NCBI GenBank assembly: GCA_035651955.1
Contig: DASRES010000085.1
Location: forward strand, 1-64,000
Reading direction: 5' to 3'
Source of the DNA: Acidimicrobiia bacterium
GTDB lineage: Bacteria; Actinomycetota; Acidimicrobiia; IMCC26256; JAMXLJ01
DNA length: 64,000 nt
Positions 12,026 through 28,171 of this stretch are shown piece by piece. A program made the translations under genes and the position numbers. A model generated the notes under the pieces. It did not search any database and was not told the origin of the DNA. It saw nothing but the letters and a program-made list of their open reading frames with translations. Every line of letters begins with the position of its first letter. The first letter of the stretch is position 1.

Positions 12026-13210
12026 TCACGCGCGCGAGCGCAGGAGCCCGCGCCGCGGCTTGCCGCTCGCCGTACGGGGGATGGAAGCCGCGAACCTGAG
12101 CTCACGAGGGAGCTCCGCCGCGCTCAGCTCGTCGCGCGCGAACGCGCGCAGCTCGTCGAGCGTCGGCAGCCCGTTCGCGTCGGCGGGCACGACGTGCGCG
12201 ACGACGCGCTCGCCCCATTCCGCATCCGGCGCCCCGGTGACGCAGACGTCCGCGACACGGGGGTGGCGCGCGAGGACGCGCTCGACGCTCGTCGGGCTGA
12301 CGTTGACGCCGCCGGTGATCACGAGATCGCGGCGGCGGTCGACGACGCGCAGCGTCCCGTCGTCGGCGCGCTCGCCGACGTCCCCGGTCCGGAGCCAGCC
12401 GTCCGTCGTGAACGCGTCACGGGTCGCGTCCGGGTCGCGGTGATAGCCGCGCATCACCACCGGACCCCGGACCTGGATCTCACCGTCCGGCGCGATGCGC
12501 ACGTCGACGCCCGGCAGCGCGTGCCCGTCGTGGACGCAGCCTCCACCCGTCTCCGTCATGCCGTACGTGGTCGCGACGTGCGCGCCACGTGCCGTCGCTC
12601 GCGCGACGAGCTCACGTGGGATCGGGCCCCCACCGAGCAGCGCGACGCGGAAGTGGTCGACGGGTGCGCCCGCGTCGAGCAGTCGCGTCAGCATCGTCGC
12701 CACGACCGAGACGAGCGTCGCACCTTCGTGCTCCGGTGACGCGCCGACCGCGTCGACGTCGAACGCCTCGTGGACCACGAGCGGCAGGTCGTGTGTACGC
12801 GCGCGGGCCACGATCGCGAGCCCCGCGACGTGGTGCACGGGCACGCAGCACAACCAGCGGTCGTCGGGTTCGCGCCCGATCGCCGTGTGCACCGCGCGCG
12901 CCGAGGCCGAGAGCGCGTCGTGGTCGAGTTGCACGGCGCGCGGCGTGCCCGTCGTCCCCGAGGTGGCGAGCACCGCGCCGACGCCGGCCGGGACCGGTTC
13001 GCCCCGGTCGGGCACCGGGCGCGTGCCGTCGCCGTCGTCCACGTGCGTCGGCCGGAGCACGGCGAGACGCGCGGCCACGGCCGCCCCCGGGGCGCCGGGG
13101 TCGAGGGGCGCGACGGCGTCGCCCCGGTCCCAGGCCCGGGTGATCGCGTCGACGGCCCGGGCGCCCCGGGCCGGCACCGCGACCAGGTTCGCTTCGTCGG
13201 CCGCCGGCAT
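12026..13210 (-). CDS. menE: o-Succinylbenzoate-CoA ligase MenE
   Basis: A 394-residue acyl-adenylate-forming enzyme that activates o-succinylbenzoate with ATP and CoA in menaquinone synthesis. The AMP-binding loop [12 protein letters not shown], the adenine loop [11 protein letters not shown], the [11 protein letters not shown] hinge region and the C-terminal catalytic lysine motif [10 protein letters not shown] are all present. The short length, lacking the large N-terminal part of acetate or fatty-acid ligases, is typical of MenE. The ATG at 13210 is backed by a TACCGT box ending 8 nt before it; the frame stays open to 13321 but would overlap the menB start. It is divergent from menB, placing two pathway genes back to back. 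Confidence 0.88.
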
Positions 13211-13217
13211 CGCCCGG

Positions 13218-13224
13218 TACGGTA
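13218..13224. promoter_or_regulatory. Bidirectional -10 region between menE and menB
   Basis: TACCGT on the minus strand (13224-13219) ends 8 nt before menE. The same bases read TACGGT on the plus strand (13218-13223), about 95 nt ahead of menB. One short palindromic region may therefore set transcription in both directions. Confidence 0.4.
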
Positions 13225-13319
13225 ACCGTTGGAGCGCCCGCTCCCAGAGTCGCACTCCCAGGGTCGCGGCTCGCTCGACGACCGGCGTGCAGGCGCCGGC
13301 CCGGCTCGCAGGAGGTGCC

Positions 13320-14168
13320 ATGGCGGCGAACCCGATCCGGCCCGCGCTCGACTGGAAGCCGTGGGGCGACGACCTCGGCTACACCGACATCCGTCTCGAG
13401 CAGGCCGAGGGCATCGCGAAGATCACGATCGACCGGCCCGAGGTGCGCAACGCGTTCCGGCCCCGCACGCTGTTCGAGCTGCAGGACGCGTTCGAGCGGG
13501 CCCGCAACGACGCCGAGGTCGGCGTGATCGTCCTCACCGGCGAGGGTCCCGACGCGTTCTGCTCGGGTGGGGACCAGCGCATCCGCGGCGACGACGGCTA
13601 CGTCGGCGACGACGGCGTCGGCCGGTTGAACGTCCTCGACCTGCAGATCCAGATCCGCCGGCTCCCCAAGCCCGTCGTCGCGATGGTGGCCGGATACGCG
13701 GTCGGCGGCGGCCACGTGCTCCACGTCGTGTGCGACCTGACCATCGCCGCCGACAACGCGCGCTTCGGCCAGACCGGGCCGAAGGTCGGCTCGTTCGACG
13801 GTGGATACGGGTCGGGCCTGCTCGCGCGCTCCGTCGGTCAGAAGAAGGCCCGCGAGATCTGGTTCCTGTGCGAGCAGTACGACGCGCAGACCGCCGCCGA
13901 CATGGGACTCGTCAACAAGGTCGTCCCGCTCGCCGAGCTCGAGGAGCAGACGGTCGCGTGGTGCCGGCGCATGCTGACCCACAGCCCGATCGCGCTGCGC
14001 ATGCTGAAGGCGGGTCTCAACGCGGCCGACGACGGGCTCGCCGGCATCCAGCAGCTCGCGGGCGATGCGACGATGCTCTTCTACATGACCGAGGAGGCGC
14101 AGGAGGGCAAGCGCGCCTACCTCGAGAAGCGAAAGCCGGACTTCGGGCGCTTTCCCAAGCGCCCGTAG
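13320..14168 (+). CDS. menB: 1,4-Dihydroxy-2-naphthoyl-CoA synthase MenB
   Basis: A 282-residue crotonase-fold enzyme closing the second aromatic ring of DHNA-CoA. The signature [15 protein letters not shown], the oxyanion region [16 protein letters not shown] and the active-site segment [15 protein letters not shown] mark MenB among crotonases. At the position of the catalytic Asp185 of the M. tuberculosis enzyme this protein has Gly, as in the E. coli type that uses bicarbonate as base. The ATG at 13320 follows AGGAGGTGCC, a strong ribosome binding site. It begins the plus-strand run menB, menA, menC. Confidence 0.95.
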
Positions 14169-14195
14169 TCCGATGTCTTCTCGCTCACTCACTGC

Positions 14196-14214
14196 GGGCC
14201 GGGATACCCGGCCC
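14196..14214. terminator. Short GC hairpin between menB and menA
   Basis: GGGCCGGG and CCCGGCCC (8-bp stem, 3-nt loop) lie 28 nt after the menB stop. There is no T tract. It may attenuate rather than end transcription into menA. Confidence 0.4.
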
Positions 14215-14273
14215 TCGGGCATTCGTTCGCTGGCGAGCGACCTGCGCTCCTCCGTCGCTCCGGTCGCCGCACC

Positions 14274-15143
14274 ATGAATCGCGCATCAATTTGGATTGCC
14301 GGCGCCCGGCCGCGGACGCTGGTGATCTCGATCACGCCGGTGTTGGTGGGGACGGCGGCGGCGTCGATCGACGGCCCGACGATCTGGTGGCGCGCGCTCG
14401 CGGCGCTCGTCGTCGCGGTCGCGCTGCAGGTCGGCGTGAACTACGCGAACGACTACTCCGACGGCGTCCGCGGCACCGATCGCGAGCGGCGCGGGCCGCT
14501 CCGCCTCACCGCGTCGGGTCTCGCGTCGCCCACCGCGGTGAAGCGCGCCGCGGCGATCGCGTTCACGCTCGCCGCGGTCGTCGGACTCGTCGTGTCGATC
14601 GTCGTGTCGCCGTGGCTGCTGCTCGTCGGCGCAGCCGCGATCGCGGCTGCCGTGCTGTACACGGGCGGTCCGCGGCCGTACGGATACGAAGGCCTGGGCG
14701 AGGTCTCGGTGCTCGTGTTCTTCGGCTTCGTCGCGACCGCTGGCTCCGCGTTCGTGCAGTTGCACGACATCCCCGCCGTGGCGTGGTGGGGATCGCTCGC
14801 GATGGGGCTGCCGGCGTGCGCGATCTTGCTGGCGAACAACGTCCGCGACGTCACGACCGACGTCGAGGCGGGGAAGCGCACGCTCGCGGTGCGCATCGGC
14901 GCCGTCAACGCGCGTCGGTTGTTCGTCGCGTGCATCGCGGGCGCGTTCGTCGCGGTCCTCGCCGTCGGCGTGTCCCATCCGCTGGCGCTGCTCGGCCTGC
15001 TCGCGATCCCGTTCGCGCTCGGTCCGTGTCGGCTCGTCCTGACGCGAGCAGACCCGCCCGGTCTCGTCGCCGCGCTCGTCGCGACGACACGCTTGCAACT
15101 CGTGCTCGGAGTCCTGCTGACGGTGGGTCTGGCGCTGTCGTGA
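14274..15143 (+). CDS. menA: DHNA polyprenyltransferase MenA
   Basis: A 289-residue integral membrane prenyltransferase of the UbiA superfamily that attaches the polyprenyl tail to 1,4-dihydroxy-2-naphthoate. The first Asp-rich motif is NYANDYSDGVRGTD and the second is NNVRDVTTDVEAGKRTLAV; these bind the Mg-diphosphate of the prenyl donor. About eight hydrophobic helices follow from the early ITPVLVGTAAA. The ATG at 14274 opens the conserved IWIAGARPRTL; no good ribosome binding site is visible. The stop overlaps the menC start, so the two are coupled. Confidence 0.93.
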   Translation: MNRASIWIAGARPRTLVISITPVLVGTAAASIDGPTIWWRALAALVVAVALQVGVNYANDYSDGVRGTDRERRGPLRLTASGLASPTAVKRAAAIAFTLAAVVGLVVSIVVSPWLLLVGAAAIAAAVLYTGGPRPYGYEGLGEVSVLVFFGFVATAGSAFVQLHDIPAVAWWGSLAMGLPACAILLANNVRDVTTDVEAGKRTLAVRIGAVNARRLFVACIAGAFVAVLAVGVSHPLALLGLLAIPFALGPCRLVLTRADPPGLVAALVATTRLQLVLGVLLTVGLALS

Positions 15144-15979
15144 ACGTGCACCGGCTGCGTCTCGGCGGGCGCGACGTCACGCTGCTGCACGGCCCGGCCG
15201 GCTGGGGTGAGTGCTCGCCGTTGCCGGGATACCCGTGCCCCGAGCGAGCCGCGTGGGCCGCGGCCGAGGAGGCCGCGTGCGGGGGCAGGCCCCGCGCCGT
15301 GCGCGACGAGGTCCCCGTGAACGCGCTCGTCGGTGACGGCCCGCTGCCCGCTCCCGGTTCGCTGGCCGGGTTCGCGTGCGTGAAGGTGAAGGTCGGTCGT
15401 CGCGATCCGCGCGAAGACCTGGACCGCCTCGCGGCGGTGCGCAACGCGGTGGATGCGTCGACGCGGCTGCGCGTCGACGCCAACGGTGCGTGGGACGTGC
15501 ACACAGCGGTCGACGCGCTGACGCGGATGGCCGCGTACGACCTCGAGCTCGCGGAGCAGCCGGTCGCGTCGCTCGACGACCTCGCGCGGGTTCGTGCGCG
15601 CGTTCCGGTCGCGATCGCGGCCGACGAGTGCGTTCGCGACGTCGACGACGCGCGCCGCGTCCGGAGGCTGGACGCGGCTGATGCGGTCGTGCTCAAGGTG
15701 CAGCCCCTCGGCGGAGTCCGCAACGCGCTGCGCGTCGCCGAGGCAGCCGGCGTCCCCGCGATCGTCACGTCGATGATGGAGACGTCGATCGGCATCGCGG
15801 CAGGCGTCGCGCTGGCGTGCGCACTCCCGGAGCTGCCCTACGCGTGCGGCTTGGCGACGGCGTTGCTGCTGGACGAGGACGTCGTCGCCGACCGGCTGGT
15901 TCCGCACGACGGCGTCATCCGGCCGCGGCCACTCGCACCCGATCCCGACCTGCTGGCGCGCTACGAGGTCACCCGGTGA
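15140..15979 (+). CDS. menC: o-Succinylbenzoate synthase MenC (short form)
   Basis: A 279-residue enolase-superfamily enzyme dehydrating SHCHC to o-succinylbenzoate. The catalytic set is visible: KVKVG (second Lys of the KxK pair), metal ligands in RVDANGAW, LAEQP and AADEC, and the opposite lysine in VVLKVQPLGG. The protein is shorter than usual (about 320) because the N-terminal capping domain is condensed to about 90 residues, though GWGECSPLPGY is kept. The GTG at 15140 overlaps the menA stop. The 3' end overlaps the convergent menH gene by 19 nt. Confidence 0.88.
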   Translation: MNVHRLRLGGRDVTLLHGPAGWGECSPLPGYPCPERAAWAAAEEAACGGRPRAVRDEVPVNALVGDGPLPAPGSLAGFACVKVKVGRRDPREDLDRLAAVRNAVDASTRLRVDANGAWDVHTAVDALTRMAAYDLELAEQPVASLDDLARVRARVPVAIAADECVRDVDDARRVRRLDAADAVVLKVQPLGGVRNALRVAEAAGVPAIVTSMMETSIGIAAGVALACALPELPYACGLATALLLDEDVVADRLVPHDGVIRPRPLAPDPDLLARYEVTR

Positions 15980-16656
15980 CGCAGTCGCTCCGCCATCGCG
16001 CGTGCGGCATCCGGTTCCTGCAGGTGCAGCGCGTGGCCGGTGCCGCCAACGACGGTCAGGCGCGCGTTCGTGCCGATCGCGCGCGCCATGTCGCGGCTGA
16101 TGCCGACGTACTTGTCGTCGAGCGCGCCGGCGGCGAGCTCGACCGGCACGGTGAGCTCGCGGAGGCGGTCCCAGACGGGCTCCTGCGCACCCTGGCCGAG
16201 CACGCGCAGCTGGTGCGTCAGTCGCTCGGCCGTGTTCGACGCCCGGCGGGCGTCGGTGCCGGCTTCGTCGGCGGCGAGCGTCGCGAACATCGGCTGCGCG
16301 AGCCAGCGGTCGAGGAACACGTCGACGCCGTCGCGCTCGACGTCGCGCGCGAGCTCGTCGTCGGCGTCGCGACGTGCCGCCCGCTCGCGGTCGTCCGCGA
16401 TGCCCGGCGACGCGCTGACGAGGCCGAGCCCGGCGACGACGTCGGGCCGGTCCAGCGCGAGGCGCAGCGCGAGCCGTCCGCCCATCGAGTAGCCGACGTA
16501 GATCGCGCGGCCGCCCGCGTCGCCGATCGCGTGCGCAGTCGCGACGAAGTCGAGCCCGTCGGGGACGTCGAGCGCGACCGTGTCGTCGAGCCCCTGCCGG
16601 ACGCGATCCCACGAGCTCGCGGGCTGCGTGAAGCCGGGTACGAACACGATCCGCAC
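15961..16656 (-). CDS. menH: SHCHC synthase-like alpha/beta hydrolase MenH
   Basis: A 231-residue alpha/beta-hydrolase fold protein with the nucleophile elbow YVGYSMGGRLAL, late acid region AGALDDKYV and catalytic His in VGGTGHALHLQEP. This fits MenH, which eliminates pyruvate from SEPHCHC. Its place between menC and menD makes this assignment strong. The GTG at 16656 precedes RIVFVPGFTQ; its distance to the divergent menD ATG is only 14 bp, so the menD promoter must lie inside this gene. The opposite orientation to its pathway neighbours is unusual. Confidence 0.85.
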   Translation of the reverse strand: MRIVFVPGFTQPASSWDRVRQGLDDTVALDVPDGLDFVATAHAIGDAGGRAIYVGYSMGGRLALRLALDRPDVVAGLGLVSASPGIADDRERAARRDADDELARDVERDGVDVFLDRWLAQPMFATLAADEAGTDARRASNTAERLTHQLRVLGQGAQEPVWDRLRELTVPVELAAGALDDKYVGISRDMARAIGTNARLTVVGGTGHALHLQEPDAARAMAERLRHRVTS

Positions 16657-16663
16657 CGGGGCA

Positions 16664-16689
16664 TGTTCGCATGACCCGTGATGCGAACA
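16664..16689. promoter_or_regulatory. 9-bp inverted repeat across the menD start codon
   Basis: Arms TGTTCGCAT (16664-16672) and ATGCGAACA (16681-16689) are perfect complements around 8 nt. The left arm contains the first two bases of the menD ATG. It could be an operator or an RNA hairpin masking the start. Confidence 0.45.
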
Positions 16690-18380
16690 CCGCGTTCGCG
16701 CGTGCCGTCGTCGACGAGTGGGCCCGCGCCGGCGTCACCGACGCTTGCGTCGCGCCCGGCTCACGCTCGACGCCGCTCGCGCTCGCACTTGCGGGCGACG
16801 GGCGCGTTCGCGTGCACATCCATCTCGACGAGCGCAGCGCGTCGTTCTTCGCGCTCGGTCTCGCGAAGGCAACCGGTCGACCGGCCGTCGTGCTGTGCAC
16901 GTCCGGTACGGCGGCGGCGAACTTCCACCCGGCCGTCGTCGAGGCGCACCACGGCGGCGTCCCGCTCGTCGTCTGCACGGCCGACCGCCCGTTCGAGCTG
17001 CGCGACACCGGCGCCGGTCAGACGATCGACCAGGTGAGCCTGTACGGCAACGCGGTTCGTTGGTCGGTCGACGTCGAGGCACCCGCGGACGCGCCGGCTC
17101 CGGTCACGCGCGCGTGGCGAGCCGTCGCGGCGCGCGCGGTCACGGAGGCGACCGGCACGCGGCCCGGCCCGGTGCACGTGAACGTCGCGTTCCGCGAGCC
17201 GCTCGTGCCGACTGGCCAGCCGCTCGTCGACGTCCCGCCGCGGACGGGCGGTGAGCCGTGGACCCGCGTGTCCCGCGGTGCCGTCGGGCCACCGGCGGCC
17301 GTCGTCGACGGCCTCGTGCGGGTCGAGCGCGGGATGATCGTCGCGGGCTGGGGCGCCGAGCTCGACGCGCGCGTGCTCGATCGCCTCGCGGCCGCGCTGG
17401 GCTGGCCCGTGCTCGCCGATCCGATCTCGAACCTGCGCACCGGCACGCACGCGGTCTCGACGTACGAGGCCCTCGTGCGCGCCGGGTTCGGGGACAACCA
17501 CCGCCCGGACGTCGTGCTCCGCTTCGGCGCGCCGCTCACGAGCAAGATGACCACGACGTGGCTCCACGAGAGCGGCGCGCGGCACGTCGTGGTGCACGCC
17601 GCGGGCGGCGCCTGGCTCGATCCGTACCGTGACGCCGACGAGATCGTCGCGTGCGACCCGACCGCGCTCGCGGGCGCGCTCGCAGAGCGCGTCGGGCGCG
17701 AACGTTCGCGGTGGTGCGACGAGTGGCTGCACGCTGAGCTCGTCGCGCGGCGCGCGCTCGCCGACCTCCTCGACGCGTCGCAGGACGTGTTCGAGGGTCG
17801 TGTCGCGCGTGACGTCGTCGCTGCGGTGCCCGAGGGTGGCAACGTCGTGGTCGCGTCGAGCATGCCCGTGCGCGACGTCGAGGCGTTCGCCGCGCCGCGC
17901 ACCGGTGTCCGCTTCTTCGCGAACCGCGGTGTCAACGGGATCGACGGGTTCGTGTCGACCGCGCTCGGGATCGCCGCGGGTTCGCCTGGGCACCCGACGG
18001 TGGCGCTCGCTGGCGATCTCTGCTTCCTGCACGACGCCAACGGTCTGCTCGGCGCGGCGCGCCGCGAGCTGGATGCCGTCTTCGTCGTGCTCGACAACGA
18101 CGGCGGCGGCATCTTCTCGTTCCTGCCCCAGGCCGACGGCCGCACCCACTTCGAGGAGCTGTTCGCCACGCCGCAGCACGTCGACCTCGCCGCCCTCGCC
18201 GCCGTGCACGGCATCCCGGCGAGCCGCGTCGACAAGGCGGCCGACGTGGTGCCGGCCCTCGACGACGCGATCGCGCGTCGCGGCGTCCACGTCGTGATCG
18301 CGACGAGCGACCGCGAGGAGAACGTCGCTCGCCACCGCGCCGCCTGGGACGCGGTCACCCAAGCGCTTCATGCGTCGTGA
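16671..18380 (+). CDS. menD: SEPHCHC synthase MenD
   Basis: A 569-residue thiamine-diphosphate enzyme that adds the succinyl-semialdehyde unit from 2-oxoglutarate to isochorismate, the first committed step to menaquinone. N-terminal APGSRSTPLALAL, the conserved Glu in LDERSASFFALGLAK, CTSGTAAANFHPAV, and the C-terminal FANRGVNGIDGFVSTALG with GDLCFLHDANGL (TPP/Mg site) identify MenD. The length fits the family. The ATG at 16671 is the only start retaining the N-terminus. It lies within a 9-bp inverted repeat, and no TANNNT box stands close. Its stop codon is inside the left arm of a 17-bp hairpin. Confidence 0.95.
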   Translation: MTRDANTAFARAVVDEWARAGVTDACVAPGSRSTPLALALAGDGRVRVHIHLDERSASFFALGLAKATGRPAVVLCTSGTAAANFHPAVVEAHHGGVPLVVCTADRPFELRDTGAGQTIDQVSLYGNAVRWSVDVEAPADAPAPVTRAWRAVAARAVTEATGTRPGPVHVNVAFREPLVPTGQPLVDVPPRTGGEPWTRVSRGAVGPPAAVVDGLVRVERGMIVAGWGAELDARVLDRLAAALGWPVLADPISNLRTGTHAVSTYEALVRAGFGDNHRPDVVLRFGAPLTSKMTTTWLHESGARHVVVHAAGGAWLDPYRDADEIVACDPTALAGALAERVGRERSRWCDEWLHAELVARRALADLLDASQDVFEGRVARDVVAAVPEGGNVVVASSMPVRDVEAFAAPRTGVRFFANRGVNGIDGFVSTALGIAAGSPGHPTVALAGDLCFLHDANGLLGAARRELDAVFVVLDNDGGGIFSFLPQADGRTHFEELFATPQHVDLAALAAVHGIPASRVDKAADVVPALDDAIARRGVHVVIATSDREENVARHRAAWDAVTQALHAS

Positions 18381-18411
18381 AACCGCGCATGGGACGGTTT
18401 CACGACGCATG
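18369..18411. terminator. 17-bp perfect hairpin containing the menD stop
   Basis: Arms 18369-18385 and 18395-18411 pair perfectly over 17 bases with a 9-nt loop. The menD TGA (18378-18380) is in the left arm, so terminating ribosomes would cover the hairpin. No T run follows. Confidence 0.65.
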
Positions 18412-18426
18412 GAGGCGGATCCGGCG

Positions 18427-18491
18427 CTCGAGTGTCAGGAGTCCGGGTTTCTTGCCGATGGTTTCGGGAGGCTCGGGTAGCGACACTCGAG
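18427..18491. repeat. 10-bp inverted repeat enclosing 45 nt
   Basis: CTCGAGTGTC (18427-18436) and GACACTCGAG (18482-18491) are perfect complements. The right arm shares TAGCGACACTC with the hairpin at 18854-18900. It lies just before the small membrane ORF. Confidence 0.5.
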
Positions 18492-18501
18492 GCGACCAGC
18501 T

Positions 18502-18777
18502 GTGCTCGTTGCGATCATCACGTACTCCGTCGCGGTCCTCGTGGCGGCAGTCTGCCTGCGTGACATGTTCACCGGGCCGCGCGTCGCGTGGCGGGCGGCG
18601 CGCAATGGCCGCCGGTTCTGGGCCGCCGTCGTGCTCGCGGCCGCCGCGGTCGGCGGGGGCGCGGGTGCGTGCCTTGCCGGTCCCGCCTACTTCCCGAGCC
18701 GGGATCGCTCTGAAGCGAAGCACGCGGCCAGGGGGCAAGCGCTCCTGACGTCCCAGCGAGCCGAGAACCGACGATGA
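18502..18777 (+). CDS. Possible small two-pass membrane protein
   Basis: A 91-residue reading frame starting with GTG. Hydrophobic segments lie at about residues 2-18 and 40-62 with a basic loop between them (RVAWRAARNGRRF), giving a plausible hairpin membrane protein with a charged tail. I see no family match and no strong ribosome binding site. Codon bias is moderate. It sits in a 530-nt space between menD and the convergent isochorismate synthase gene, a space otherwise filled by hairpins. It could be real or a chance frame in GC-rich DNA. Confidence 0.4.
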   Translation: MLVAIITYSVAVLVAAVCLRDMFTGPRVAWRAARNGRRFWAAVVLAAAAVGGGAGACLAGPAYFPSRDRSEAKHAARGQALLTSQRAENRR

Positions 18778-18853
18778 GGATGCACCTCGGCCGTTTCGGT
18801 CCTTGGTGCCGACTCGTCGCGCCGATCCGCCAGTTCCGGCGCAATGCACGCGC

Positions 18854-18900
18854 TTCATGCGTCGCTGAACGTCGGATAGCGACACTCAACGACGCATGAA
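18854..18900. terminator. Interrupted hairpin after isochorismate synthase
   Basis: Outer arms TTCATGCGTCG (18854-18864) and CGACGCATGAA (18890-18900) pair over 11 bases; a 3-bp and a 4-bp inner stem continue to a 5-nt loop. It lies 8 nt beyond the minus-strand stop at 18908 and can serve both convergent genes. Confidence 0.6.
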
Positions 18901-18907
18901 CGACGGG

Positions 18908-20098
18908 TCAGGGTGTGACGAGGACGCGCAGCATCGGTGCGAGCTTCGACTCCGTCTCGGCCCACTCGGCGTCCGGGTCGGAGCCCGCCACGATGCCGGC
19001 GCCCGCGATGAGGCGCGCCCGGCGACGATCGACGATCGCGCCGCGCAACGCGACCGCCCACTCGCCGTCGCCGTTCGCGTCGACCCAGCCGACCGGCCCC
19101 GCGTAGCAGCCGCGGTCGAAGCCCTCGACCGCGTCGATGAACGCCAGCGCCGCGTCGCGCGGCGCTCCCGCGACGGCCGGCGTCGGTGACAGCGCGAGCG
19201 CGAGATCGAGCGCGCTCGGCGCGGGCGGTCGGAGGCGGCCCTCGATCGTCGTCGCCAGGTGCGTGACGTCGGCGAGCCGGACGAGTTGCGGCCCGGAGAC
19301 CTCGAGCTCGTCGCAACGACGGCCGAGCACGTCCACGACGTCGTCTGCCACGACGGCGTGCTCGTGCCTGTCCTTGCGGGACGAGGCCAGCGCGCCGTCG
19401 CCGTCGGCGCGCGGCGTCGTGCCGGCCAGTGGGCGCGCGTTCACCGCGGCGCCGTGCCGGGCGACCAGCAGCTCCGGGCTCGCGCCGACGAGCGCGCCCG
19501 CCGCGTGGACGAAGCAGCCGGGCTGCGACGCGAGCAGACGCGCGATCACGTCACGCCGCGAGAACGGCTGGTCGGCCTCGACGACGACCTCGCGTGCGAG
19601 GACGACCTTCTCGATGTCGCCGCACTCGATCGCCCGCAGCGCGGCGAGGACGTTCGCGCACCAGCGCGCCCGCGACTGCACGGACGACACGAGGAACCGG
19701 CCCGGTCCGGGCCTCGCGCCCGGGTCGTCGACGCGCCCACCGCGCTCGGTACCACCGGCAGCCGAGATCTCGGTGAGCCAGGCGGTCCCGTCGGCGCCTC
19801 GGGTGACGACTCGGGCCGGCACGACGAGCTGGCGCGGCGCGCGCGGGTGGAACGGCAGCGCACCGAACGCGATCGGACCACGACCGGTCGGACCGGCGGC
19901 GTCGTCACGCTCGATCGCCGCCAGGAACGACTCGACCTCGGCCGCGTCGAGCGTCGCGACCATGCCCGCGGTGACGATCGCCGCGCCGTCGTGGAACCAC
20001 GCGAACCCGTCGTTGCCGAGCTCGTCCAGGAGCGGACGGGTCAACGCGACAGGCCGCGTCATCGCGACGAGGCGCGTGCCGTGCGCGAGCGTCGTCAC
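18908..20098 (-). CDS. menF: Isochorismate synthase (MenF/EntC type)
   Basis: A 396-residue chorismate-binding enzyme converting chorismate to isochorismate. Signature parts are KVVLAREVVVEAD with the catalytic-base lysine region, GASPELLVARHG, ARPLAGTTPR, YAGPVGWVDANGDGEW and the C-terminal AGAGIVAGSDPDAEWAETESK. The general acid and Mg-binding glutamates lie in these blocks. Placement one gene away from menD and overlapping menG supports the menaquinone role over siderophore synthesis, although an EntS-like exporter lies 4 kb away. The start at 20098 overlaps the menG stop by 4 nt, so MerR, menG and this gene form one minus-strand operon. Confidence 0.9.
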   Translation of the reverse strand: MTTLAHGTRLVAMTRPVALTRPLLDELGNDGFAWFHDGAAIVTAGMVATLDAAEVESFLAAIERDDAAGPTGRGPIAFGALPFHPRAPRQLVVPARVVTRGADGTAWLTEISAAGGTERGGRVDDPGARPGPGRFLVSSVQSRARWCANVLAALRAIECGDIEKVVLAREVVVEADQPFSRRDVIARLLASQPGCFVHAAGALVGASPELLVARHGAAVNARPLAGTTPRADGDGALASSRKDRHEHAVVADDVVDVLGRRCDELEVSGPQLVRLADVTHLATTIEGRLRPPAPSALDLALALSPTPAVAGAPRDAALAFIDAVEGFDRGCYAGPVGWVDANGDGEWAVALRGAIVDRRRARLIAGAGIVAGSDPDAEWAETESKLAPMLRVLVTP

Positions 20099-20796
20099 GA
20101 GCCCGGCCTGCGCGTGCCGGACAGCAGCTGCACGGCGCCGGCCATGCGCGTCGTCCGCGCGACGGACTCGAACCCCGCGTCGCGCAGCCGCGACACGAGC
20201 TCGTCGCCGTCGGGCAGGTAGGCCGTCGACGCCGGGAGGTACCGGTAGGCGTCGACCTCACCCGACAACCGGCCACCGATCCACGGCACGATCCGCCGGA
20301 ACCACAGGTCGTGACCCGCCCGCGCGAACGCGTTGGCGGGGACGGAGGCGTCGACCGCCACGAACCGTCCGCCGGCGCGCAGCACGCGCGCGCACTCGGC
20401 GAAGAACGGCTCGAGCGCGACGAGGTTGCGGAGCGCGAACCCGCACACGACGCCGTCCACAGCGCCGTCGCGCACCGCCATCGCGAGCGCGTCGCCGCGC
20501 ACGAGCGGACCGCACCCGCGCGCGGTCGCGAGCATCCCGGCCGAGAGGTCGACGCCGACGGGCCGGTGCTTTGCGTTCCCGAGCTCGCGGCACAGGTCGC
20601 CCGTCCCGCACGCGACATCGAGCACGACGGATGCGGGCGGCAACGCGAGCGCGCGCACCACGTCACGTCGCCACTTGCGGTCCTGACCGAGGGAGATCAC
20701 ACGGTTGACGCGCTCGTAGCTCGGCGCGACGCGGTCGAACATCTCCTCGACCCACGCGCGCTTCTCGTCGCCGCGCGGGAGCGCTACGCGGGCCAC
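20095..20796 (-). CDS. menG: Demethylmenaquinone methyltransferase MenG/UbiE
   Basis: A 233-residue class I SAM methyltransferase for the last step of menaquinone synthesis, methylating C2 of the naphthoquinone ring. The SAM loop VLDVACGTGDLC, the family start MFDRVAPSYERVNRVISLGQDRKWRR in two overlapping motifs, and FALRNLVALEPFF are clear UbiE/MenG hallmarks. It overlaps the upstream MerR gene by 13 nt and the downstream isochorismate synthase gene by 4 nt, implying one coupled transcript. The methylated quinone suits the menaquinone pathway encoded around it. Confidence 0.93.
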   Translation of the reverse strand: MARVALPRGDEKRAWVEEMFDRVAPSYERVNRVISLGQDRKWRRDVVRALALPPASVVLDVACGTGDLCRELGNAKHRPVGVDLSAGMLATARGCGPLVRGDALAMAVRDGAVDGVVCGFALRNLVALEPFFAECARVLRAGGRFVAVDASVPANAFARAGHDLWFRRIVPWIGGRLSGEVDAYRYLPASTAYLPDGDELVSRLRDAGFESVARTTRMAGAVQLLSGTRRPGS

Positions 20797-23453: not shown

Positions 23454-23888
23454 GTGGCCACACAGCTCGAGACCCAGCCCCGCCCCGCAGTCGCGACGCC
23501 GGACCGGACACGGCCCGACACGCGGCAGTGGCTGTGCGAGCGGATCGACGGTCGCGTGGCCGCCGGCGTCGGCATCGCGTGGTACGTGCTGTTCGGGATC
23601 GCGCAGGCGATCGAGCCGGCGCCGGCGAACCCGAACGCGGTTCCGGCGTGGATCGAGAGCGCGATCTCCGTCGTGTTCCTCGCCACGCTCGCCGTCATGT
23701 TGCCCGGGCTGATCGCGCGGCGTCGCTGGGGACTGCTCGCGTCGCTCGGCGCGGCCGTCGTGTTCGTCGCGGCGACGATCGCGTGCCCGACGACCGGTCA
23801 CCACGAGTTCGGTCTGTGGTGGCTCGGTGAGATGGCGTGCGCGGCGGCGCTGCTCGGGATCAGCGTCGCGACGCTCAGGCGGGCGTGA
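23454..23888 (+). CDS. Small multi-pass membrane protein of unknown role
   Basis: A 144-residue protein with a Thr/Pro/Arg-rich N-terminal tail of about 35 residues, then four hydrophobic helices (about 42-58, 74-92, 97-115, 123-140). I do not recognise the family. The GTG at 23454 is chosen because GAGGAGGTCGACC precedes it. The 3' end overlaps the convergent MFS gene by 14 nt. It is divergent from the crotonase gene. Confidence 0.7.
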   Translation: MATQLETQPRPAVATPDRTRPDTRQWLCERIDGRVAAGVGIAWYVLFGIAQAIEPAPANPNAVPAWIESAISVVFLATLAVMLPGLIARRRWGLLASLGAAVVFVAATIACPTTGHHEFGLWWLGEMACAAALLGISVATLRRA

Positions 23889-25197
23889 CCGCGTCGCCTG
23901 TCGCGGTCTCGGTCGCCGGGACGGGCGTGTCGGTGATCGACGTCGTCTCGTCGTCGAGGCGCGCGAGCCAGGCGCGCGCGGTCATGCGCAACGCGACGAC
24001 GGCGACGAGGAACAGCGCGGCCGCGCCGATCGTCGTCTCGCGCAGACCCACACCGTCGCCGAGCGCTCCCTGAGCGATCGTCCCGATCGGGTAGAGGATC
24101 CCGAGGAGCGCCATCAGCAGGCTGAGGACGCGACCGCGGATGTAGGTCGGCGTGCGCAGCTGCGCGATCGTCGTACAGCTCGAGAGCACACCGAGGTACA
24201 GGAACCCGACGAACGCGATGCCGAGCACGCCGAGCCACAACGACGGCGCGCTCGCGTAGCCGACGAGCGCGAACGGCAGCAGCGTCGCGGCGCCGAGCAA
24301 CGTGCGCCGGTTCCCGAGGCGTGCGTGCAGCGGGCCCAGGGCGAGCCCCATGACGACCGCGCCGATGCCCTGCGCGGTCACGAGCGCGGCGGTTCCCGTC
24401 GTCGCGTCGTGGAACACCTTGTCGCCGAACGCGGGGACCAGCGCGATGAACGGCGCGGCGAGGAACGCGGCGAACCCGAGCACCGCGAACGCGACACGGA
24501 GTCCGGGGTCGTCGTTGCCGAAGCGCACACCGGCGCGGATCGACTGCAGCAGCGGCGCATGCCCCTCCGGCTCGGGTGGCGGCAGCCGCAGCGACAGCAG
24601 GACGAAGATCACGGCGAAGAACGAGATCGTGTTGATCGTGAACGCCGACGCGTAGCTCCCCGCGGCGATGACGACGCCCGCGAGCGCGGGCCCGATCACG
24701 CGTCCGAGGTTCCACTGCGCTGACGACAGCGCGACCGCGCCCGCGAGGTCCTCCACCGGCACGAGGTCGGGCAGGAGCGCTTGGTACGCGGGGAACCCGA
24801 TCGCGTTCGCGCAGCCCGACAGGAACACGATGAGCACGACGATCCCGGGCGCCGGCTTGCCGAATGCCGCGAGCGCGGCCAGCGTCCCGGCGAGCGCGGT
24901 CTGCACGCTCGTCGTCGTGAGGAGCAGCAGCCGCCGGGGGACGCGGTCCGCGAGCGCGCCGCCGATCGGCCCGAGCAAGCCGTTCGGCGCGAACCCGGCC
25001 GCGAGCACGAGGCCGCTCCACGTCGCCTTGTTCGTGCTCGTCTGCACGAGGATCCCGACCGCGACCGTCTCCATCCACGTGCCGATGTTCGACGTGAACG
25101 CGCCGCTCCACAGCAGCGCGAACGGCCGGTGACGCAGGGGCGAGAGCGAACGGGGGAGCGCGGCGATGCCGCGACCGTAGGTGATGACACCGGGCAC
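23875..25197 (-). CDS. MFS exporter (EntS/MFS_3-like)
   Basis: A 440-residue major facilitator transporter with about 12 transmembrane helices. The start region SPLRHRPFALLWSGAFTSNIGTWM and the loop GALADRVPRRLLL (the A-motif between helices 2 and 3) resemble the MFS_3 group, which contains the enterobactin exporter EntS and macrolide exporters. Substrate unknown. The GTG at 25197 is chosen because it keeps the N-terminal amphipathic part; a slightly later start is possible. The promoter region is shared with the divergent quinol oxidase gene and contains a 6-bp inverted repeat. Confidence 0.88.
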   Translation of the reverse strand: MPGVITYGRGIAALPRSLSPLRHRPFALLWSGAFTSNIGTWMETVAVGILVQTSTNKATWSGLVLAAGFAPNGLLGPIGGALADRVPRRLLLLTTTSVQTALAGTLAALAAFGKPAPGIVVLIVFLSGCANAIGFPAYQALLPDLVPVEDLAGAVALSSAQWNLGRVIGPALAGVVIAAGSYASAFTINTISFFAVIFVLLSLRLPPPEPEGHAPLLQSIRAGVRFGNDDPGLRVAFAVLGFAAFLAAPFIALVPAFGDKVFHDATTGTAALVTAQGIGAVVMGLALGPLHARLGNRRTLLGAATLLPFALVGYASAPSLWLGVLGIAFVGFLYLGVLSSCTTIAQLRTPTYIRGRVLSLLMALLGILYPIGTIAQGALGDGVGLRETTIGAAALFLVAVVALRMTARAWLARLDDETTSITDTPVPATETATGDAVTPA

Positions 25198-25244: not shown

Positions 25245-25904
25245 ATGCTCGTCGAGCGCACGTCCGCCGAGCTGCGCGAGGAGCAGGCCCGGACGCTCGC
25301 GACGCCCCGGCGCCGCTACGGCCCTCCGGCCCGGCTCCTGTTCGCCCTGCTCGACCTCTTCTACGGCCGGCCTCGCACGCTCTCGAAGTTCAAGGTCCTC
25401 GAGGTCATCGCCCGCGTGCCGTACCAGGCGTGGGAGAACGTCGCGTACGTCGCGGTCACGCACCGCTACTCGAAGCCGGAGTTCGCGCGCCGGATCTTCG
25501 AGCGCGTCGCCGAGAGCCGCGTCCAGCAGGACAACGAGCAGTGGCACCTGCTGATCCTCGAGGAGCTCGTCGACGAGCAGCCCGGCCGCGAGCCGTTCGT
25601 GCGGTACCGACTCCTGCCCCAGCTGCTCGCGTTCGTCTACTACCAGCTGTCGTGGCTTCTCTACGTCGTGAAGCCGGCATGGAGCTACCTCCTGAACGCC
25701 GACTTCGAGGACCACGCCGAGCACGAGTACGCGCTGTTCGTCCGCGAGAACACGAGCCTCGAGGCCCGGCGTTACGACGGGCTCTTCGCCGACGACTACG
25801 GCCACTTCGAGTCGCTCGGCGACCTCTTCCGCCAGATCTCGCTCGACGAGCGGGTCCACAAGGAGGAGAGCCTCGCTCGGGCCGCGGAGCCCCGGTTCAA
25901 GTAA
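25245..25904 (+). CDS. Alternative-oxidase-type di-iron quinol oxidase
   Basis: A 219-residue protein that keeps the complete di-iron ligand set of alternative oxidase (AOX) and plastid terminal oxidase. Visible are Glu53 in KVLEVIARVP (compare LETVAAVP), Glu98 and His101 in DNEQWHL, Glu155 in FEDHAEHEY, and Glu202 and His205 in LDERVHKEE. Tyr162, seven residues after Glu155, matches the redox tyrosine of AOX. Hydrophobic stretches around 122-150 would bind the membrane surface. The predicted reaction is quinol oxidation with oxygen to water, without proton pumping. In this genomic setting the quinol should be menaquinol, whereas known AOX enzymes use ubiquinol or plastoquinol. The start is set by the ATG and a TATGGT box 6 nt upstream. 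Confidence 0.85.
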   Translation: MLVERTSAELREEQARTLATPRRRYGPPARLLFALLDLFYGRPRTLSKFKVLEVIARVPYQAWENVAYVAVTHRYSKPEFARRIFERVAESRVQQDNEQWHLLILEELVDEQPGREPFVRYRLLPQLLAFVYYQLSWLLYVVKPAWSYLLNADFEDHAEHEYALFVRENTSLEARRYDGLFADDYGHFESLGDLFRQISLDERVHKEESLARAAEPRFK

Positions 25905-25979: not shown

Positions 25980-26654
25980 ATGCGGATCCTGGTCGTGGAC
26001 GACGAGCCGGCCGTGCGGCGGGCGGTCGAGCGCGCGCTGCACCTCGAGGGCTACGAGGTCGGCGTCGCGGCCGACGGCAACGAGGCGCTGCAGCAGCTCG
26101 CGGTGACGCCGGCCGACGCGGTCGTCCTCGACGTCATGATGCCCAAGGTCGACGGCATCGAGGTCTGCGAACGGCTGCGCCAGGCGGGTGATCCCGTGCC
26201 GATCCTGCTGCTGACGGCCCGCGACCGCGTCTCCGACCGCGTGACGGGTCTCGACGCCGGCGCCGACGACTACCTCGTCAAGCCGTTCGCGCTCGAGGAG
26301 CTCCTCGCGCGCCTCCGTGCGCTGCTGCGCCGGACGGGCGGACCGGGTGAGGACGCGGTCCTCCGCTTCGAGGACCTGTCGCTCGACCCCGAGACGCGCG
26401 ACGTCTACCGCGGCGAGCGTCGCATCGAGCTCACGCGCACGGAGTTCCTCCTGCTCGAGCTCCTGCTGCGCAACGCGCGGAAGGTCCTGACCCGTGAGGT
26501 GATCTTCGACCGCGTGTGGGGATACGACTTCGGGTACAACTCGAACTCGCTGGAGGTCTACATCGGGTACTTGCGCCGCAAGACCGAGGCCGGAGGTGAG
26601 CCGCGGCTGATCCACACCGTGCGCGGTGTGGGCTACGTGCTGCGGGAACCGTGA
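25980..26654 (+). CDS. OmpR/MprA-like response regulator
   Basis: A 224-residue response regulator. The receiver domain has the acidic pair in VVDDEP, phosphoacceptor Asp in [12 protein letters not shown], Thr in LLLTARD and Lys in YLVKPFAL. The C-terminal winged helix has [18 protein letters not shown] and [12 protein letters not shown]. Order and sequence resemble mycobacterial MprA, an envelope-stress regulator. The ATG at 25980 follows GGGAGGCC. The sensor gene overlaps by 4 nt. Whether it controls the oxidase just upstream is unknown; the 75-nt gap holds only an imperfect GC hairpin. Confidence 0.93.
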
Positions 26655-28171
26655 GCGTGTTCCGTCGCGGCACGCGCGACGCCGACGCCGTGCTCGGCGA
26701 CGAGGACCTCACGCCGCTCGACCCGGACGCGCCGGACGCCGTTCCCCCCGCGGAGCCGGTCGATGCCACACCGTCGAAGCGCCGCGCCTTGAGCTTCCGG
26801 ACGCGCGTCGCGCTCCTGGCGGCGGCCGCGGTCGCGGTCGCGGTCGTCCTCGCGTCGGCGGTCGCGTACTTCGAGGTCCGTCACCAGCTCTATGTGCAGG
26901 TCGACAACACGCTCCGTCAGCCTCAGCGGGTCGAGACGGACGGTTTCGACGGAGGGTTCTTCGGTCCGCGGCTGCCCCCCGGGGAGCAGCGCTTCGTGCA
27001 GGTGATCCGCACCGACGGCACGACGGCTCGTCCGGCGGATCAGCCCGCGCTTCCCGTCAGCGCACGCGACCGCGCCGTCGCAGCCGGTCAGCACGAGTAC
27101 GTGATCGAGAGCGTGCACATCGACGGTGTCCACATGCGGATGATCACGACGGAGCCCGCGGGCGGGGATCCGACGGTCGCCGCCGTCCAGATCGCGCGGT
27201 CGCTGACCGAGGCCGACAACACGCTCGGCCATCTCCGCATCGTGCTGCTCCTCGTCGCCGCGGGCGGTGTCGTGATCGCGGCCGGGTTGGGGCTCGTGGT
27301 GGCGCGCAGCGCGCTGCGGCCCGTGAAGCGGTTGACGGACGCGGCCGAGCACGTCGCGGAGACCCAGGACCTCGGGGCGTCGATCCCCGTCGACCGCAGC
27401 GACGAGCTGGGCCGGCTGGCCGAGAGCTTCAACGAGATGCTCGCCGCGCTCGCGTCGTCGCGCGACCAGCAGCAGCAGCTCGTCGCGGACGCCAGCCACG
27501 AGCTGCGCACGCCGCTCACGAGCCTGCGCACCAACATCGAGGTGCTCGCGCGCGCCCCGAACATCGACCCGTACGAGCGCGAGCGGCTGCTCGCCGACGT
27601 GACCGCGCAGCTCGAGGAGTTCGGCGTCCTCGTCGAGGACCTCGTCGAGCTCGCGCGCGAGGACCGGCCGACCGTCGAGCAGGAGATGGTCGACGTCCGC
27701 CTCGACGAGGTCGTCACGCACGCGGTCAACCGCGCCCGCCGGCATGCACCGGCGCTCGTGTTCGAGGCGTCGACCGCTCCGTGCCTGGTCCGCGGTCAGC
27801 GACAGATGCTCGAGCGCGCGCTCACGAACCTGCTCGACAACGCGAGCAAGTGGAGCCCCGACGGTGCGCACGTCGAGGTCGTGCAGACGGCCGAGGGCGA
27901 GGTCACCGTCCGCGACCACGGGCCGGGCATCGCGCCCGAGCTGCGCGAGAAGGTCTTCGACCGGTTCTACCGGGCGCCGGCCGCCCGGTCGATGCCCGGC
28001 TCGGGGCTCGGCCTGGCGATCGTCCGGCGGGTCGTGGAGGCACACCGCGGGACCGTCGGCGCTGAAGCCGCGCCCGGGGGCGGCACGCTCATGCGGGTCC
28101 GGCTGCCGGTCGTCGACCTCGAGGAGCCGGTACCGGTGGACCTCGAGCCGGAGCCCGTCCGCCGGGCCTGA
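26651..28171 (+). CDS. MprB-like sensor histidine kinase
   Basis: A 506-residue membrane sensor. A 45-residue cytoplasmic lead is followed by a first membrane helix (about 52-75), an extracytoplasmic region of about 110 residues, a second helix (about 197-218), a HAMP domain, and the kinase core. The H box is [14 protein letters not shown], the N box [14 protein letters not shown]1 [14 protein letters not shown], the F box [15 protein letters not shown] and G2 [11 protein letters not shown]. All catalytic boxes are intact. Start at 26651 overlaps the regulator stop (ATGA-type coupling). Confidence 0.93.

Follow-up and report, generated by a model that had tools for sequence, protein, structure and literature searches.

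The window analysed here, a stretch of 64,000 nucleotides from an Acidimicrobiia bacterium, contains at positions 25245-25904 of the forward strand an open reading frame that starts with ATG, has no internal stops and codes for a protein of 219 amino acids (hereafter the oxidase). Its GC content at codon positions 1, 2 and 3 (0.72, 0.38 and 0.97) is a strong GC3 coding signature, and the opposite strand holds only a stop-free mirror frame, as is usual in high-GC coding DNA. The gene diverges from a major facilitator superfamily (MFS) transporter gene located approximately 48 bp away, and it is followed 75 bp downstream by a response regulator gene that overlaps a sensor histidine kinase gene (Table 1), so arranged that the oxidase gene may be co-transcribed with this two-component pair. 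A scan for promoters and terminators around the oxidase gene found nothing. Genes for menaquinone biosynthesis (coding for MenE, MenB, MenA, MenC, MenH, MenD, isochorismate synthase, and MenG) span positions 12026-20796, approximately 4.4 kb from the oxidase gene, with MerR, DUF4328, and MFS genes in between. The original prediction had counted eight menaquinone genes near the oxidase, and all eight were located, MenB by inspection only.

Table 1. Coordinates of the oxidase gene, its neighbors and the menaquinone biosynthesis genes in the window.
Feature	Position	Strand	Basis
MenE-like (AMP-binding)	12026..13321	-	Pfam AMP-binding and context
MenB-like (crotonase fold)	13320..14168	+	Inspection of the translation of ORF 12495-14168 only
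MenA, DHNA prenyltransferase	14274..15143	+	NCBIfam NF004751, 343.7 bits (cut-off 264); TIGR00751, 241 (cut-off 102)
MenC-like (enolase superfamily)	15140..15979	+	Pfam MR_MLE_C
MenH-like alpha/beta hydrolase	15961..16656	-	TIGR03695, 148 bits, under the equivalog cut-off of 208.6
MenD	16671..18380	+	TIGR00173, 464 bits (cut-off 244); sole copy in the genome
Isochorismate synthase (MenF/EntC type)	18908..20098	-	TIGR00543, 256 bits (cut-off 225)
MenG/UbiE demethylmenaquinone methyltransferase	20095..20796	-	TIGR01934, 169.5 bits (cut-off 158)
MFS transporter	23875..25197	-	Pfam MFS_3/MFS_1
AOX/PTOX-superfamily di-iron oxidase, third branch (219 aa)	25245..25904	+	Pfam PF01786, alignments, AlphaFold2 model and Foldseek to TAO
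OmpR-type response regulator	25980..26654	+	Pfam Response_reg, Trans_reg_C
Sensor histidine kinase	26651..28171	+	Pfam HAMP, HisKA, HATPase_c

The oxidase matched the Pfam family of alternative oxidases (AOX, PF01786) with an E-value of 1.1e-7 and 32.2 bits, above the gathering cut-off of 22.7, and a search of NCBIfam with the same protein returned no family. An AOX-type enzyme had been predicted originally, with a better match to a non-oxidase di-iron family named as the outcome that would speak against it; no such match was found, the profile of COQ7 being silent up to E = 1. Alignment with the trypanosomal AOX (TAO), whose reference sequence matches PDB 3vv9 letter for letter, paired E53, E98, H101, E155, E202, and H205 of the oxidase with TAO E123, E162, H165, E213, E266, and H269, and Y162, located seven residues past the third Glu ligand (E155), with TAO Y220. 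All seven positions had been read correctly from the single sequence as the six AOX ligands and the redox tyrosine, and they are identical in 44 out of 44 aligned relatives; the six di-iron ligands (four Glu and two His, including two ExxH motifs) are invariant in 85 out of 85. Judged from these alignments, the agreement is far beyond chance.

Searches of the PDB by sequence (with the window oxidase) and by profile (with an alignment of 35 members) did not find TAO and gave chance matches only, and because of this a comparison of folds was chosen. An AlphaFold model of the oxidase built with the family alignment (pLDDT 93.6, pTM 0.90) places E53, E98/H101, E155, and E202/H205 within four predicted helices, one ligand group per helix and in the AOX order. 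Foldseek against all solved structures returned 14 matches at E <= 0.001, every one of them a TAO chain (E-values from 1.6e-5 to 1.8e-4, TMq 0.64-0.73); the next match had an E-value of 0.35, and human COQ7 one of 0.65 (TMq 0.40). The comparison with trypanosomal AOX that the original prediction had proposed thus singled out that enzyme. The helices at 27-40 and 118-142, which correspond to the membrane helices of TAO, rank among the most hydrophobic of the oxidase, the latter being less hydrophobic than in TAO (KD 1.05 versus 1.92). Family, ligands, tyrosine, and predicted fold together place the oxidase in the superfamily of AOX and plastoquinol terminal oxidases (PTOX).

A tree was calculated from 44 family members together with PTOX and AOX references. 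The 44 sequences formed one group (SH-aLRT 99), set apart by a stem with a length of 4.99 changes per column and distant from AOX and PTOX. This group did not cluster with AOX and was found on its PTOX side, at a PTOX support of 57 and with saturated branches; since the branch lengths are saturated, the order of AOX, PTOX, and this third branch is unsure. On these sequence data the oxidase appears to belong to a deep and apparently undescribed third branch, and not to be a standard AOX or PTOX. The original assignment therefore holds for the superfamily fold, the ligands, and the tyrosine, and gives way to a separate third branch where standard AOX had been assumed.

The third branch was compared with both known groups. 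AOX, known from mitochondria and Pseudomonadota and represented by TAO (3vv9), has in common with it the fold (Foldseek 1.6e-5, TMq 0.67), all the ligands, the Tyr220 equivalent, and residues L122, A216, and D100, at an identity of 16-21% in the structural alignment. The ligand spacing is 45/57/47 in 42 out of 44 third-branch members, in contrast to 39/51/51 in AOX and 39-41/52/27-69 in PTOX. Four positions of the quinol pocket also differ from TAO: R118 is replaced by K48, R96 by F33, E215 by H157, and T219 by E161. We take a role of these TAO residues in quinol and inhibitor binding to be established from TAO structures. K48, F33, and H157 are fixed in all 44 members, in which the AOX residues Arg96, Arg118, and Glu215 are accordingly absent, and E161 is present in 42. 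PTOX, from cyanobacteria, cyanophages, and plastids, shows 27-33% identity to the oxidase and shares with the third branch the di-iron ligands and the tyrosine, the E-x-H-A-x-x-x-Y motif that includes His157, and a Tyr at the positions of TAO M190 and H206. It differs in having Arg at the position of Lys48, Val/Ile at that of Phe33, and Thr/Ser at that of Glu161, so that from the full PTOX motif E-x-H-A-x-x-T/S-Y the third branch keeps E, H, A, and Y, and has Glu161 for Thr/Ser. By sequence, the third-branch motif is nearer to PTOX than to AOX. The hosts differ as well: known AOX hosts use ubiquinol, whereas third-branch hosts are non-photosynthetic, in contrast to PTOX hosts, and mostly use menaquinone.

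A family scan with one genome per species located 148 related places, 80 of which were fetched. Carriers among these belong to Actinomycetota, Rokubacteria, Omnitrophota, Elusimicrobiota, Myxococcota and other former Deltaproteobacteria, Nitrospirota, Planctomycetota, Kiritimatiellota, and Bdellovibrionota. The original prediction concerned one actinobacterium, where the oxidase is indeed found, but the branch has a patchy distribution across at least nine phyla of bacteria, some of them represented by single metagenome bins in which mis-binning is conceivable, and Nitrospirota and Actinomycetota backed by complete genomes. Nitrospirota carriers include Nitrospira moscoviensis and Candidatus Manganitrophus; the former, Aquihabitans sp. 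G128, and Acidiferrimicrobium are carriers with named strains. Within Actinomycetota, the branch occurs in Acidimicrobiia and several lineages of Actinomycetes, including one of the Mycobacteriaceae, and it is rare in this phylum (five out of 396 genomes in an even sample). The genome of Mycolicibacter sp. MYC098 (L072) carries this mycobacterial member; a review of mycobacterial terminal oxidases names "alternative oxidases" once in passing and AOX by name never (PMC7719681). Mean column identity is 62% among 35 diverse members, and Pfam AOX was above cut-off in seven out of seven whole carrier genomes tested. Among the genomes compared, the closest was the Acidimicrobiia genome nzgw84, with 77.7% identity for the oxidase (75-78%), 61% for MenD, and 63% for the heme-copper oxidase subunit I (COX1). 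No 16S rRNA gene was detected in the assembly; these three proteins support well the placement of the host in Actinomycetota and, probably, in Acidimicrobiia, on a basis of few genes. A much more divergent member from the phylum of the window (L085, in the futalosine-pathway genome G002), with 35% identity to the window oxidase, is possibly an early offshoot of the third branch. Viral carriage was considered and rejected: a profile scan of viral contigs revealed no third-branch member, and the cyanophage matches are ordinary PTOX, one cyanophage PTOX being among the three viral matches to the oxidase.

Analysis of the gene neighborhoods in other carriers did not reveal a conserved linkage of the oxidase with the two-component system, a pairing absent from the other loci, or with men genes, since none of the window's neighbors follows the oxidase elsewhere. 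Because these neighbors are not kept, proximity to the men cluster carries no evidential weight: the cluster on which the original prediction relied is present in the window, but the clustering is not conserved. In Rokubacteria, eight out of 10 loci (L009, L013, L016, L006, L011, L020, L022, and L062; short contigs hide some genes) have the oxidase gene on the same strand beside a formate-dehydrogenase-type set coding for a Mo-oxidoreductase, an FeS protein, NrfD, and FdhD. Two orders were found, either Mo-oxidoreductase, FeS, NrfD, oxidase, and FdhD, or FdhD, oxidase, Mo-oxidoreductase, FeS, and NrfD, and MqnA/D was found in all four tested genomes of Rokubacteria with that operon. NrfD-type subunits link such enzymes to the quinone pool. 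These arrangements suggest a formate-to-menaquinone-to-oxygen module. As gene context, they independently support an oxidase linked to menaquinol, and local removal of O2 would fit them equally well; the eight loci come from a single phylum and hence amount to one or two events in evolution. Outside Rokubacteria, the neighbors of the oxidase were not consistently respiratory. At one Omnitrophota locus (L005:8001-9869), genes for SCO1/SenC and methionine sulfoxide reductase lie directly after the oxidase gene, hinting at a role in oxidative stress.

The quinone type of the host was determined from gene markers. In the host genome (4.1 Mb, 96% complete), which codes for two COX1 subunits, a genome-wide search found MenD and neither the futalosine-pathway MqnA/D, nor UbiG above cut-off, nor COQ7; by these markers it is a menaquinone-only genome, as supposed in the original prediction, which had named ubiquinone genes elsewhere in the genome as a counter-argument. 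If the oxidase is a quinol oxidase, menaquinol would therefore be its natural substrate here. The same markers were scored in 55 carrier genomes. A menaquinone pathway was present in 38, through MenD in 22 and strong MqnA/D in 16, with no overlap. Five genomes, all from Nitrospirota and comprising all the carriers tested from that phylum, had the methyl-plastoquinone methyltransferase MpqE above cut-off and no menaquinone pathway (L032, L064, L067, L071, and L073). UbiG was above cut-off in three, namely two Bdellovibrionota and one marginal case that also has MenD. The two Bdellovibrionota genomes (L063 and L075, from Bacteriovoracaceae and Halobacteriovoraceae) also have a weak COQ7 match and lack MenD and MqnA/D, which makes ubiquinone synthesis possible in them. 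The remaining 10 genomes, many of them incomplete bins, had no clear quinone assignment. By these markers, the third branch is not confined to menaquinone hosts.

Since most carriers make menaquinone, the oxidase probably burns menaquinol with O2 and builds no proton gradient. We consider it likely that the enzyme is a monotopic di-iron member of the AOX/PTOX superfamily, from its third branch, acting as a non-energy-conserving menaquinol:O2 oxidoreductase; iron loading, membrane binding, the quinol substrate, water as product, and the physiological role are what we infer from sequence and model. In the proposed mechanism, helices 27-40 and 118-142 would hold menaquinol between them at the membrane face, and its electrons would pass to the di-iron site formed by E53/E98/H101/E155/E202/H205, where O2 would be reduced to water with Tyr162 as redox partner. 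No proton would be pumped and the two energy-conserving heme-copper oxidases would be bypassed, so that the oxidase may serve as an overflow or O2-removing branch. The altered quinol pocket, the lower hydrophobicity of helix 118-142, the methyl-plastoquinone marker of the Nitrospirota carriers, and the lack of consistently respiratory neighbors outside Rokubacteria count against this reading. Cytochrome bd, the heme-containing and energy-conserving menaquinol oxidase, is a membrane protein without sequence relation to the oxidase; the reaction of menaquinol with O2 would be common to both, while the proteins are unrelated.

Those altered pocket residues would also fit an AOX-fold di-iron enzyme that modifies a quinone or a lipid in the manner of COQ7 and does not oxidize quinols. 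COQ7, a demethoxyubiquinone hydroxylase, resembles the oxidase superfamily in being a four-helix bundle with a di-iron carboxylate site and in acting on quinones, and its profile matched weakly seven out of 35 third-branch members. The best of these matches (6e-4) is nevertheless far poorer than that of Pfam AOX, which matched all 35 members at E <= 0.1 with a best E-value of 3.7e-12; with the decisive fold match to TAO over COQ7 and the invariant AOX tyrosine, this makes an oxygenase improbable. The same chemistry as in the preferred menaquinol oxidase could instead serve to scavenge O2, protecting O2-sensitive enzymes such as the formate-dehydrogenase type of Rokubacteria or limiting oxidative stress, where we have put an overflow valve. 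The position of the oxidase among Mo-oxidoreductase genes in Rokubacteria and the Omnitrophota locus described above argue for such a function, but neighbors of this kind are absent from the window and from the Actinomycetota loci examined, and we regard it as rather unlikely.

How far the third branch is adapted to its substrate is a separate matter. It may be a third AOX subfamily, horizontally spread over at least nine phyla, that constitutes a dedicated, non-energy-conserving oxidase of menaquinol and methyl-plastoquinol with a pocket tuned through Lys48, Phe33, His157, and Glu161, and the chances for and against this seem to us evenly balanced. The methyl-plastoquinone marker in Nitrospirota carriers means that the host's own quinone may be all that decides the substrate. 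The oxidase would then use whichever quinol its host offers (menaquinol, methyl-plastoquinol, or perhaps ubiquinol), without special adaptation to a low potential and with the residue changes reflecting drift in an old lineage; menaquinol would still be the substrate in the host of the window. The mixture of menaquinone, five methyl-plastoquinone-marker, and two ubiquinone-like genomes among the carriers speaks for this, but the fixation of K48, F33, and H157 and the near-fixation of E161 look like constraint and not drift, and we hold it to be quite possible while somewhat doubting it.

A survey from 2025 confined AOX to Alpha-, Beta-, and Gammaproteobacteria (Pseudomonadota) and PTOX to Cyanobacteriota, and built on that distribution its conclusions on the origin of oxygen reductases (PMC7618691). 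Our search of open-licence papers, in which absence is not proof, found no description of the third branch in Nitrospira, Rokubacteria, Actinobacteria, Elusimicrobia, or others, and within this literature neither the branch nor its distribution nor its quinone context appears to have been described; members may be automatically annotated as "alternative oxidase" in databases, and thus the sequences themselves have probably been seen before. A third branch over nine further phyla, consisting mostly of menaquinone users, alters the known distribution of AOX and PTOX, and the carriers with named strains make it directly testable. It would show that AOX/PTOX enzymes are able to accept a lower-potential quinol as substrate. 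If the branch is a dedicated oxidase, it would provide an aerobic branch in bacteria thought to be free of AOX, including Actinomycetota (with one of the Mycobacteriaceae) and nitrite oxidizers (Nitrospira). Heme-free and proton-neutral oxidation of menaquinol, if true, would bear on the tolerance of menaquinone-using aerobes to cyanide, nitric oxide, and over-reduction.
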